From positions 169,910 to 233,909 of the forward strand of contig NZ_PJMC01000006.1 in NCBI RefSeq assembly GCF_002892795.1: a stretch of 64,000 nucleotides of DNA, read 5' to 3'. The first letter of the stretch is position 1; the number at the start of each line of letters is the position of its first letter. The notes under the pieces are model-generated. The model was not told the DNA's origin, did no database searches, and saw only the letters and a program-made list of their open reading frames with translations. Origin of the DNA: Arthrobacter sp. AFG20 (GTDB taxonomy: Bacteria; Actinomycetota; Actinomycetes; Actinomycetales; Micrococcaceae). Below are positions 49,883 to 52,599 of the stretch, in pieces. A program made the position numbers and the translations under genes.

Positions 49883-49888
49883 TAAAGT
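49883..49888 (+). promoter_or_regulatory. -10 element of the leuS attenuator transcript
   Basis: TAAAGT, 6 nt before the ATG of the leader peptide, so transcription is expected to start on or next to that ATG. No clear -35 at 17-19 nt. Confidence 0.55.
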
Positions 49889-49894
49889 AGTTTT

Positions 49895-49921
49895 ATGCGT
49901 GCGATCCTTCTGCTTAGCTAG
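49895..49921 (+). CDS. leuS leader peptide MRAILLLS (predicted attenuator peptide)
   Basis: Eight-codon frame ATG CGT GCG ATC CTT CTG CTT AGC then TAG. Three consecutive Leu codons, two of them CTT, which is rare in this GC-rich genome. The ATG coincides with the expected transcription start, so it would be translated from a leaderless mRNA. An intrinsic terminator lies 40 nt downstream and leuS 128 nt downstream. This is the classical layout of ribosome-mediated attenuation, with stalling at Leu codons when charged tRNA-Leu is short. Prediction from sequence only. Confidence 0.7.
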   Translation: MRAILLLS

Positions 49922-49960
49922 CCGCTTGGTATCCCTAACAAATACGGATTATCGAGCGGC
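49921..49960 (+). promoter_or_regulatory. Anti-antiterminator stem of the leuS leader
   Basis: GCCGCTTG (49921-49928), starting on the leader-peptide stop codon, can pair with CGAGCGGC (49953-49960) in 8 bp including one G.T. The 3' arm can instead pair (49954-49959 with 49963-49968, one mismatch) with the 5' arm of the terminator. A ribosome held on the Leu codons would cover the 5' arm and so favour readthrough. The alternative pairing is weak and is inference. Confidence 0.45.
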
Positions 49961-49961
49961 C

Positions 49962-49985
49962 GCCCCTCCATGTCGAGGGGCTTTT
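49962..49985 (+). terminator. Intrinsic terminator (attenuator) upstream of leuS
   Basis: GCCCCTC (49962-49968), loop CATGTC, GAGGGGC (49975-49981), followed by TTTTGTGTG. It has no gene of its own to terminate on this strand apart from the 8-codon leader peptide, which is why it is read as an attenuator. Confidence 0.75.
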
Positions 49986-50049
49986 GTGTGTCCGGGGAGA
50001 CCTTCCCGGCGGGCGGCGGGGATCAGACCGTTGTGACAGGACAGAGGTC

Positions 50050-52599
50050 ATGACAGAACAGAAGAGGGCAGCAGTGAGCGTTCAGCCGGAGACCGAAACC
50101 GGAACAGCAGCAGGTGGAGCGGAGACACCCGAAGAGGGCGCGTACAGCTTCGCGGCGATGGAGGCCCGGTGGCCCCAGGTGTGGGAAGAACTGAAGGTTT
50201 TCACCCCCGCCGACGACGGTTCCCGGGAGCGCCGTTACGTCCTGGACATGTTCCCCTACCCGTCCGGTGACCTTCACATGGGCCACGCAGAAGCCTTCGC
50301 CATGGGCGACGTGGTGGCGCGGTACCTGCGCCAGCAGGGATACGACGTGCTGCACCCGATCGGCTGGGACTCGTTCGGGCTGCCCGCGGAAAACGCGGCG
50401 ATCAAGCGCAACGCCCACCCGAGCGAGTGGACCTACGCCAACATCGACACCCAGGCCGCGTCCTTCAAACGCTACGCCATCTCCGCTGACTGGTCCCGCA
50501 GGCTCCACACTTCCGATCCCGAGTACTACCGCTGGACGCAGTGGCTGTTCAAGCGCTTCTACGAACGCGGCCTGGCCTACCGGAAGGACCACCCGGTCAA
50601 CTGGTGCCCCAAGGACCAGACCGTGCTGGCCAACGAACAGGTTGTTAACGGCGCCTGCGAACGCTGCGGCACCGCCGTGACCAAGAAGTCGCTGAACCAG
50701 TGGTACTTCAAGATCACCGAGTACGCCGACCGGCTGCTGGATGACATGGAGCAGCTCCGCGGCCACTGGCCCGAGCGCGTGCTGGCAATGCAGAAGAACT
50801 GGATCGGCCGCTCCGAGGGCGCCCACGTCAACTTCGTCATCGAGGCCGACGGCAGCAAGCCCGCCAAGGACGTCACCGTCTTCACCACGCGCCCGGACAC
50901 GCTGTACGGCGCCACGTTCTTCGTCGTCGCCGCCGACGCCCCGCTGGCCCTGGACCTGGTCACCGAGGAGCACGCCGCCGCCCTGGACGAATACCTTGAC
51001 AAGGTCAAGGCGCTGTCGGAGATCGAACGCCAGTCCACCGAGCGCGAAAAGACCGGCGTCTTCACCGGCAGGTACGCGGTCAACCCGCTCAACGGCGAGA
51101 AGCTGCCCGTCTGGGCTGCCGACTACGTGCTGGCCGACTACGGCACGGGCGCCATCATGGCCGTGCCCGCACACGACCAGCGCGACCTCGACTTCGCCAA
51201 GGAATTCGGCCTCCCTGTGCGCGCGGTCCTGGACACCGGCGAAGAGGACCCTGCTGTGTCCGGCACGGCGACGGCGGGCGAAGGCACCCTGATCAACTCG
51301 GGCTCACTGAACGGCCTGCCCAAGAGCGAGGCCATCCCGGCAGCCATTCGGATCCTCGAAGGGCAGGGCACGGGCGAAAAGTTCGTCAACTTCCGCCTGC
51401 GCGACTGGCTGCTGAGCCGGCAGCGCTTCTGGGGCACACCCATCCCGATCATCCACTGCCCCGCCTGCGGCGAGGTGCCGGTTCCGGACGAGCAGCTGCC
51501 CGTCGAACTGCCGGCCGACCTGCGCGGCGAGGACCTGGCACCGAAGGGCACCTCTCCCTTGGCCGCGGCCGAAGCCTGGGTCAACGTCGAGTGCCCCACC
51601 TGCCACGGACCGGCGCGCCGGGACACGGACACCATGGACACCTTCGTGGATTCGTCCTGGTACTTTCTGCGCTTCGTTTCACCCCACTACACCGAAGGCC
51701 CGTTCGATCCCGAAAAGATCAACGACTGGATGCCGGTGGGACAGTACGTGGGCGGCGTGGAGCATGCCATCCTGCACCTGCTGTACGCCCGGTTCTTCAC
51801 CAAGGTCATCAATGACCTGGGCCTGATCGAGGCGAACGAACCGTTCAGCGCCCTGCTCAACCAGGGCCAGGTGCTGAACGGCGGCAAGGCCATGAGCAAG
51901 TCGCTGGGCAACGGCGTTGACCTGGGTGAACAGCTGGACAAGTTCGGCGTCGACGCCGTCCGGCTCACGATGATCTTCGCGTCCCCGCCCGAGGACGACG
52001 TCGACTGGGCGGACGTTTCGCCGTCGGGCTCCGCGAAGTTCCTGGCCCGCGCCTGGCGGCTCGGGCAGGACGTTTCGAGCGCCCCCGGGGTTGACTTCAG
52101 CACCGGTGACCGCGCGCTGCGATCGGTCACTCACAGGACCATCGCGGACGCCGCAGAGCTGCTGGACAACAACAAGTTCAACGTCGTCGTGGCCAAGCTG
52201 ATGGAGCTGGTCAACGCCACCCGCAAGACCATTGACTCCGGTGCCGGCGGCGCCGATCCGGCCGTGCGCGAAGCCGCCGAGGCGGTGGCCGTCATCCTCA
52301 GCCTCTTTGCGCCCTACACGGCGGAAGACCTGTGGAACGTCCTGGGCCACCCGGCGTCGGTGGCCAACGCCGGTTGGCCTACGCACGACGAGGCCCTTCT
52401 GGTGCAGGAGACCATCACCGCGGTGGTCCAGGTCCAGGGCAAGGTCAGGGACCGGCTCGAGGTGTCACCGGCCATCTCCGAGGACGACCTGCGTGAGCTT
52501 GCGCTGGCCTCCGAGAACGTCCAGCGTGCCCTCGACGGCCGGGGCATCCGGACGGTGATCGTGCGGGCACCTAAACTGGTGAACATCGTCCCGGCCTAG
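50050..52599 (+). CDS. leuS: Leucine--tRNA ligase
   Basis: 849-aa class Ia synthetase charging tRNA-Leu. Catalytic Rossmann domain with FPYPSGDLHMGHAEA (HIGH-type HMGH, about 78-81), a CP1 editing domain (about 245-440; TTRPDTLYGATF, and YGTGAIMAVPAHDQRD), and AMSKSLGNG (KMSKS-type, about 617-621) followed by the anticodon-binding helical domain. A Cys-pair region (CPACGE, CPTCHG) interrupts the catalytic half. ATG 50050 with AGAGGTC upstream; the frame runs 22 codons further but through the post-terminator leader. Its own substrate, Leu-tRNA, is what the upstream leader peptide would sense. Confidence 0.97.
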   Translation: MTEQKRAAVSVQPETETGTAAGGAETPEEGAYSFAAMEARWPQVWEELKVFTPADDGSRERRYVLDMFPYPSGDLHMGHAEAFAMGDVVARYLRQQGYDVLHPIGWDSFGLPAENAAIKRNAHPSEWTYANIDTQAASFKRYAISADWSRRLHTSDPEYYRWTQWLFKRFYERGLAYRKDHPVNWCPKDQTVLANEQVVNGACERCGTAVTKKSLNQWYFKITEYADRLLDDMEQLRGHWPERVLAMQKNWIGRSEGAHVNFVIEADGSKPAKDVTVFTTRPDTLYGATFFVVAADAPLALDLVTEEHAAALDEYLDKVKALSEIERQSTEREKTGVFTGRYAVNPLNGEKLPVWAADYVLADYGTGAIMAVPAHDQRDLDFAKEFGLPVRAVLDTGEEDPAVSGTATAGEGTLINSGSLNGLPKSEAIPAAIRILEGQGTGEKFVNFRLRDWLLSRQRFWGTPIPIIHCPACGEVPVPDEQLPVELPADLRGEDLAPKGTSPLAAAEAWVNVECPTCHGPARRDTDTMDTFVDSSWYFLRFVSPHYTEGPFDPEKINDWMPVGQYVGGVEHAILHLLYARFFTKVINDLGLIEANEPFSALLNQGQVLNGGKAMSKSLGNGVDLGEQLDKFGVDAVRLTMIFASPPEDDVDWADVSPSGSAKFLARAWRLGQDVSSAPGVDFSTGDRALRSVTHRTIADAAELLDNNKFNVVVAKLMELVNATRKTIDSGAGGADPAVREAAEAVAVILSLFAPYTAEDLWNVLGHPASVANAGWPTHDEALLVQETITAVVQVQGKVRDRLEVSPAISEDDLRELALASENVQRALDGRGIRTVIVRAPKLVNIVPA

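Follow-up and report, generated by a model that had tools for sequence, protein, structure and literature searches.

The gene for leucyl-tRNA synthetase, leuS (50050..52599, plus strand), is preceded by a candidate leucine-sensing transcription attenuator in a 64,000-nt stretch of contig NZ_PJMC01000006.1 of Arthrobacter sp. AFG20; this whole stretch is termed the window. The gene was assigned by a TIGR00396 match above cut-off (967 bits joined), together with Pfam PF13603, PF00133 and PF08264. Ahead of it on the same strand, a -10 element TAAAGT (49883..49888), predicted to belong to a leaderless promoter, is located 6 bases before the ATG (49895) of the reading frame ATG CGT GCG ATC CTT CTG CTT AGC TAG (49895..49921), which encodes MRAILLLS*. 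The leucine codons CTT CTG CTT occupy 49907-49915 and the stop codon TAG 49919-49921; CTT is rare, accounting for 4 of the 72 leucine codons in the window's leuS. The second CTT (49913..49915) is the predicted sensor codon. It is separated by the 5-nt spacer AGCTA (49916..49920) from hairpin 1 (49921..49960), the predicted starvation-state hairpin, whose first base doubles as the third base of the stop codon. Folding predicted 16 pairs for this hairpin, with the stem 49921-49928/49953-49960 as its base (GCCGC/GCGGC). In the joint fold a single base (49961) lies between hairpin 1 and a terminator at 49962..49991, GCCCCTC-CATGTC-GAGGGGC (stem 49962-49981), followed by the tail TTTTGTGTGT. No gene is present between the leader and the start of leuS. 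An earlier note on this DNA had described the promoter element, the 6-nt distance, the peptide, the three adjacent leucine codons with two rare CTT, the stem starting from the stop codon, the T-tailed terminator and leuS as the next gene, and all of these agree with the sequence.

The window leader folded with -38.5 kcal/mol (z -4.0), a value equalled by none of 200 shuffles, and the terminator scan found one terminator versus a shuffle mean of 0.5 (sd 0.7). An exact GGGGCTTTTGTGTGTC occurs at a single site in the window's own genome, the one at leuS. Searches of the window for Rfam families, T-box and other leader families among them, gave no match at gathering score; the best local match was anti-hemB with 17 bits against the 49.5 needed (E 0.13). 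Within the DNA of hairpin and terminator, a 10-of-12 sigma-70-like site was noticed on the minus strand (49948-49976), probably a coincidence.

Conservation and spread of the leader

Seventy leuS loci of the genus were read, the window's own genome among them, and contained 66 distinct leaders. Kinship among the genomes inflates these and all following counts. The -10 element, the start codon and the leader were kept in 70/70 loci, with a TANNNT motif at a distance of 6 nt from the leader start in 69 and of 7 nt in one. Codon 5 was CTY (CTT or CTC) and codon 6 was CTG in 69/70 each, and codon 7 was CTT in 70/70, against a background of 6.2% CTT among the leucine codons of leuS in 30 loci of the genus. 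The terminator stem and GGGGCTTTTGTG were unchanged across the 66 distinct leaders. TAG is missing in one of the 70 loci (L037) and in a further locus of the genus (L085), where the frames read on; thus the stop codon is not the conserved feature. Searching with the DNA of the leader plus the start of leuS had matched 195 of 198 genomes of the genus, a number for which the coding part alone may account; the 70 loci were taken from these matches.

Beyond the genus, a covariance model (R1) built from the genus set had matches in 46 of 248 genomes of the order (E 0.01) and in 113 of 394 genomes of the class (E 0.1). Both numbers are lower bounds; the model is too narrow, and its matches include some leaders of genes other than leuS. 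In four of ten genomes of the order without a model match, reading upstream of leuS revealed a leader (L324, L326, L327 and L329), in L327 with a T tail that was not recognisable. Six relatives from the same family without a model match were read as well: L317 has a diverged leader and L318 a leader with a single leucine codon, while L319-L322, with smaller genomes of 2.0-2.7 Mb, present an apparent leader loss. The L318 peptide, MYSQRDLA*, contains the lone rare leucine codon CTA, which is not 5 nt before the hairpin and is an exception to the register described below; the hairpins are still one base apart.

A core DNA pattern that used no gene information retrieved at least 80 actinobacterial loci with names among the matches listed. 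In 80/80 of these a match to leuS began 44-221 nt downstream on the same strand. The loci belong to Arthrobacter, Pseudarthrobacter, Paenarthrobacter, Streptomyces, Streptantibioticus, Nonomuraea, Nocardioides, Marmoricola, Saccharothrix, Microlunatus and others. TANNNT precedes an in-frame start codon in 78/80, by 6 nt in 72 and by 7 nt in 6 loci, the other two being cut by a contig end. In an alignment of 79 listed pattern leaders, 78 of them distinct, the proposed structure paired 92.9% of the cells versus 84.4% in shuffles. Two-sided covariation was present in 144 cells versus 44.8 in shuffles, on an alignment fitted to the model and with the five lowest pairs of hairpin 1 and the CCCCTC fixed by the search pattern. 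Neither value was reached in any of 500 shuffles. All four counted upper pairs of hairpin 1 covaried, with 45, 37, 15 and 5 two-sided cells. Both stems covary beyond shuffles across the listed pattern leaders. The earlier note had looked to relatives for a conserved leucine run, for covariation in both stems and for a start codon fixed after the -10 element, and all three were found. In three pattern loci (L201, L224 and L239) the middle leucine codon was replaced, by GAG, CAG and GTG, and the CTT before hairpin 1 was retained.

Predicted sensor codon, register and abutting hairpins

For a sample of the class not selected on the leader, 89 upstream regions of leuS were taken out of 117 class genomes with leuS; the remaining 28 genomes include 18 known carriers, 10 of them in genus g103, hence the sample understates presence. 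Regions were flagged by a rule that scored the -10 element, the spacing and the leucine run and gave a bonus for CTT or CTC near GC[CG]. Leaders with at least three leucine codons were able to qualify without the bonus, and none did so. The rule flagged 28 of the 89 regions and, as a control, none of the 89 on the reverse strand; one flagged leader (L348) was judged spurious and 27 were kept. The last leucine codon in these leaders was CTT in 17, CTC in 10 and never CTG, while the leucine codons of leuS in 69 named loci are 2.4% CTT, 13.5% CTC and 80.6% CTG. The register could be parsed for 26 of the 27 leaders, and in 26/26 a CTT (19) or CTC (7) ended exactly 5 nt ahead of hairpin 1; in the unparsed leader (L369) a CTT was seen at the same place by eye. 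The gap between the two hairpins in the joint fold, which cannot come out negative, was 0 in 23 and 1 in 4 of the 27 leaders.

A wider set showed the same abutment. Out of 179 loci, 23 were unparsable and 9 of the remaining 156 were dropped for lack of a recognised tail, leaving 147 leaders, a set heavy in the genus and not exclusive to leuS. The gap was 0 in 87, 1 in 56, 2 in 3 and 3 in 1 of them. A count of pairings at fixed positions was not used, as it mixed leaders of either gap length, 0 or 1. Among leaders the loops differed in length and the stop codons in position; gap, spacer and codon were nearly constant. When the sensor codon occupies the A site of the ribosome, the first base of hairpin 1 is at +12 (numbering of PMC8861025), just past the 11-nt channel; once the stop codon has moved into the A site, 6 or more bases of hairpin 1 are inside the channel in 26/26 parsed leaders. 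The new element is this geometry, a 5-nt register combined with hairpins 0-1 nt apart.

Some of the model matches lie ahead of ilvB, leuA or cimA. For cimA (citramalate synthase, TIGR00977), 24 genomes of one family of the order (f13) were considered, L445 not being read. A scan demanding TANNNT found leaders in 0 of 23 loci; with the demand dropped, a script parsed leaders in 21 of 23, and that of L439 was visible by eye, giving the leader loci L422, L423 and L425-L444, while the stretch read in L424 is coding. The codon located 5 nt before hairpin 1 encodes isoleucine in 22/22 (ATC 14, ATT 8), and the hairpins are 0-1 nt apart in 21/21 parsed leaders, with stems unlike those of leuS. A search for cimA in the window's own genome gave no match. 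Our literature search, thin on subscription journals, revealed no description of a cimA leader of this type. For ilvB, the codon at the 5-nt register was valine in 5, leucine in 2, isoleucine in 1 and arginine in 1 of the 9 scored among 10 leaders; L148 was excluded, since its hairpin 1 was not recognised. By reading, two hairpins 0-1 nt apart were present in 8 of the 10. The window's own genome carries one such ilvB leader (L446, contig C40), MIFVTVGTVVVLTKRVAP* with the codons GTC GTC GTA CTT, 5 nt, a hairpin and an abutting T-tailed hairpin, and thus a second element of the same geometry. Three leuA leaders (L142, L151 and L186) have a leucine run directly ahead of a GCCGC hairpin; no T-tailed terminator was found in them.

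A design shared among actinomycetes may be sketched from these leaders, tentatively and with the doubts somewhat heavier than the support. It would manage without antiterminator pairing to the terminator arm: one hairpin, exactly 5 nt after the sensor codon, would act as a brake where the mRNA enters the ribosome, as in the dnaX geometry, and, flush with the terminator, as a steric antiterminator, and the single codon would set the amino acid, leucine for leuS, isoleucine for cimA and mostly valine for ilvB. If this rule is true, one codon would suffice to tell which amino acid such a leader senses. It would also mean that intrinsic termination can be controlled by an abutting hairpin, a matter on which the published evidence, in the text available, points both ways.

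Proposed mode of control

We read the leader as a leucine-sensing transcription attenuator of leuS, an interpretation for which we see the chances as evenly divided. In starvation, a ribosome held up at the CTT codons for want of Leu-tRNA would not disturb hairpin 1; the folded hairpin, flush with the foot of the terminator, would keep the terminator from closing, and leuS would be transcribed. A ribosome that moves on to the stop codon would open the base of hairpin 1, the terminator would close and transcription would stop. The anatomy, its conservation, the 5-nt register, the codon bias and, in folds, the abutment are observations. Translation probably initiates on the 5' AUG, as was reported for the Streptomyces homologue, and both the stalling of the ribosome and the sign of the control are inferred. 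Hairpin 1 may act mainly sterically in the exit channel of RNA polymerase, aided at most by 1-2 boundary bases. This is the most speculative step of the scheme. Blocking of the exit channel is a known antitermination route for the phage protein P7 (PMC6624301), and structures that hinder terminator hairpins have been reported to lower termination (PMC8355165). Positioned at the distance from which frameshift stem-loops hinder tRNA binding to the A site, hairpin 1 may also heighten the sensitivity of the sensor codon and may hold the waiting ribosome.

The switch was examined by folding. Equilibrium folding of the full-length RNA with the ribosome footprint blocked was rejected as blind, the four E. 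coli attenuators behaving alike in it. In this test, blind to known switches, the window terminator was formed in every ribosome state and terminators of the class set stayed at 0.9 or above in 17 of 20 tested leaders. A nascent-fold test, in which the folded RNA ends before the 3' arm of the terminator, discriminates known attenuators: the trapping of the terminator arm at the control codons was 0.75 for thrL, 0.60 for leuL, 0.71 for trpL and 0.74 for hisL. This test and that for boundary exchange covered 65 of the 70 loci of the genus and 21 of the 27 class leaders. In the window, trapping at the three leucine codons was 0.24, 0.01 and 0.00. The class leaders gave 0.00 in 21/21 for the sensor codon; the highest value that any of them had at an earlier leucine codon was 0.46 (L338). 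Of the genus leaders, 9 of 65 came to 0.5 at some one of the three final waiting positions, with a maximum of 0.58.

Several observations weigh against the reading as a sterically held, starvation-induced attenuator. In the equilibrium folds, blind as they are to known switches, both hairpins coexist with the window ribosome at the first two leucine codons. In the nascent fold, 0.69 of the terminator arm was trapped with the ribosome at the stop codon; were this to last, readthrough would be favoured in fed cells. While the ribosome waits at the first leucine codon of the window, 1.7 terminator-arm bases are taken into pairs below hairpin 1, leaving room for an exchange at the boundary. Tandem hairpins after M. 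smegmatis gyrA are cited as terminating better than single ones (PMC8355165, in the text available). A consensus scan called no sigma-70 promoter on the plus strand. The distribution is patchy, with a leader in 27 of the 89 leuS regions by the flagging rule, and no leader was present upstream of leuS in four of the six same-family relatives without a model match (L319-L322). The bonus of the flagging rule favoured CTT or CTC 4-6 nt before GC[CG], and two of the 27 leaders (L363 and L389) depended on it; the gap taken from the joint fold has its floor at zero.

An exchange of strands at the boundary, in which hairpin 1 gains 1-3 pairs from the terminator foot and the two swap boundary bases, is the strongest competitor, though unlikely in our view. 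A precedent was proposed for C. glutamicum ilvBNC, with a shared boundary GCC and mutants backing the model (PMC11857589, in the text available). When the ribosome stands two codons short of the sensor, at least one terminator-arm base is paired below hairpin 1 in 60 of the 65 genus leaders, on average 1.9 bases against 1.7 in the window, and 12 of the 21 class leaders share at least one boundary base at one of the two earlier positions. However, one codon before the sensor just 2 of the 65 genus leaders reach one base, and 9 of the 21 class leaders stay below one base at both earlier positions. At the sensor codon the value is 0.0 in the window and in 21/21, and those bases are then inside the ribosome channel.

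The switch drawn in the earlier note was the classical one: stalling of the ribosome would set the 3' arm of hairpin 1 free to trap the 5' arm of the terminator. We consider it improbable. In the window a short pairing between GAGCGG and CCCCTC is possible, and the Streptomyces homologues have been called classical, with antiterminator hairpins (PMC1262725, in the text available). This best pairing between the two arms amounts to -2.7 kcal/mol, however, versus -13.5 kcal/mol for the terminator, and in the nascent fold the response runs in the wrong direction. Over 79 distinct arm sets the pairing had a median of -1.6 kcal/mol, versus -14 kcal/mol for the terminator, and was equal with arms swapped between species; the arms are also 0-1 nt apart in the folds. 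On the model folds, the window leader has no classical antiterminator, because arm trapping at the sensor codon was 0.00 versus 0.60-0.75 in the E. coli controls. The three features found in relatives support the earlier proposal as regards a leucine attenuator of leuS whose leader is read from the 5' end. The switch as drawn is not supported: the hairpins abut, trapping at the sensor codon is 0.00, and no more than 1-2 boundary bases can be drawn into hairpin 1. A reading in which the terminator is lengthened through pairing of the 3' arm of hairpin 1 with the T tail was also considered and dropped, the Streptomyces-type tail being without the needed G.

Control of opposite sign seems hardly more credible than the classical switch. 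Here hairpin 1 would aid the terminator, as in tandem hairpins, or shield its arm, and starvation would lower the transcription of leuS. Tandem hairpins can outperform single ones in termination (PMC8355165), and in the nascent fold nothing holds the arm at the sensor codon, whereas part of it is trapped once the ribosome is at the stop codon. The sense of such a control would be physiologically wrong for a synthetase gene, and this trapping depends on the -2.7 kcal/mol pairing, which the terminator with its -13.5 kcal/mol should displace. A constitutive short leader with a weak terminator and no leucine response is very improbable: replacing codons upstream of S. coelicolor ilvBNC reportedly left both regulation and expression unchanged (PMC1262725, citing its reference 23), but the register codon tracks the pathway of the gene, with leucine at leuS, isoleucine at cimA (22/22) and a branched-chain codon in 8 of 9 scored ilvB leaders.

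Apart from the leader, a minus-strand frame of 376 aa (48600-49730) with a signal-peptide-like stretch was noticed in the window between an FGGY-kinase gene and the leuS leader; a Pfam search at E 0.001 gave no match for it.

Comparison with known systems

The window holds a Micrococcaceae member of a published kind of leuS leader. For S. avermitilis and S. coelicolor, classical attenuators of leuS had been predicted (PMC1262725), and LeuL2, MRAVRLLLSEPR, was described as the product of leaderless transcription before leuS in S. lividans TK24 (PMC8079986). A frame with a leucine run directly upstream of leuS, and a hairpin with a U-run between leader and leuS, were both found in the window. 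With LeuL2 the window leader shares the MRA..LLLS frame, the hairpin with U-run and the position upstream of leuS; it is predicted to be leaderless, as was reported for LeuL2. Exactly MRAVRLLLSEPR is present in four Streptomyces loci among the pattern matches listed (L207, L218, L226 and L257) and in genomes of genus g103, there with the codons CTT CTG CTT AGC and abutting hairpins. The Streptomyces leader differs in being 4 codons longer, whereas the Arthrobacter type ends after 8 codons at the foot of hairpin 1. The 5-nt register and the abutment are absent from the descriptions in the available text of PMC8079986 and PMC1262725. The earlier note knew of no leaderless leuS leader in this lineage. 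One had already been described in Streptomyces, as far as the available text of PMC8079986 goes; for Micrococcaceae our literature search, thin on subscription journals, found no leuS leader described. A leader seen by RNA-seq in Streptomyces is hereby extended to Micrococcaceae and many other Actinomycetes, and the textbook switch drawn for it is replaced by a testable geometry.

Single traits recur in other systems. The stem-loops of dnaX and HIV, at this distance, hinder the binding of tRNA to the A site, and the dnaX spacer is also 5 nt long (PMC7282821, PMC8861025, both in the text available). As in the dnaX frameshift stem-loop, the hairpin of the window leader follows 5 nt past the A-site codon, with the first stem base at +12; the leader differs in having no slippery sequence and no sign of frameshifting, so the spacing alone is common to both. 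The LEU element of actinobacterial leuA (PMC1262725), like the leuA leaders L142, L151 and L186, has a leucine-run leader directly before a GCCGC hairpin. In contrast to the window leader, these three presented no T-tailed terminator, and the element was proposed to act on the Shine-Dalgarno box of leuA, according to the available text of that paper.

The thr, leu, trp and his attenuators of E. coli resemble the window leader in a leader peptide rich in codons for the sensed amino acid and in a T-tailed terminator before the gene. Their antiterminator shares the 5' arm of the terminator (0.60-0.75 in the nascent fold), whereas the window has 0.00 at its sensor codon. The closest mechanism, as far as the available text of PMC11857589 describes it, is that of the C. 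glutamicum ilvBNC 'fast attenuator', in whose model antiterminator and terminator share the boundary GCC and mutants had seven- to eight-fold effects. There, too, the leader is near-leaderless, and the hairpin formed on a pause at the CUU/GUA codons, which is the antiterminator, meets the foot of the terminator. The two types differ at the boundary: the GCC is shared in C. glutamicum, while in the window type the hairpins are 0-1 nt apart and 1-2 bases can be shared only before the sensor codon is reached. Judged by the modelled folds, a boundary exchange in the window would correspond, on a smaller scale, to that proposed for C. glutamicum ilvBNC.

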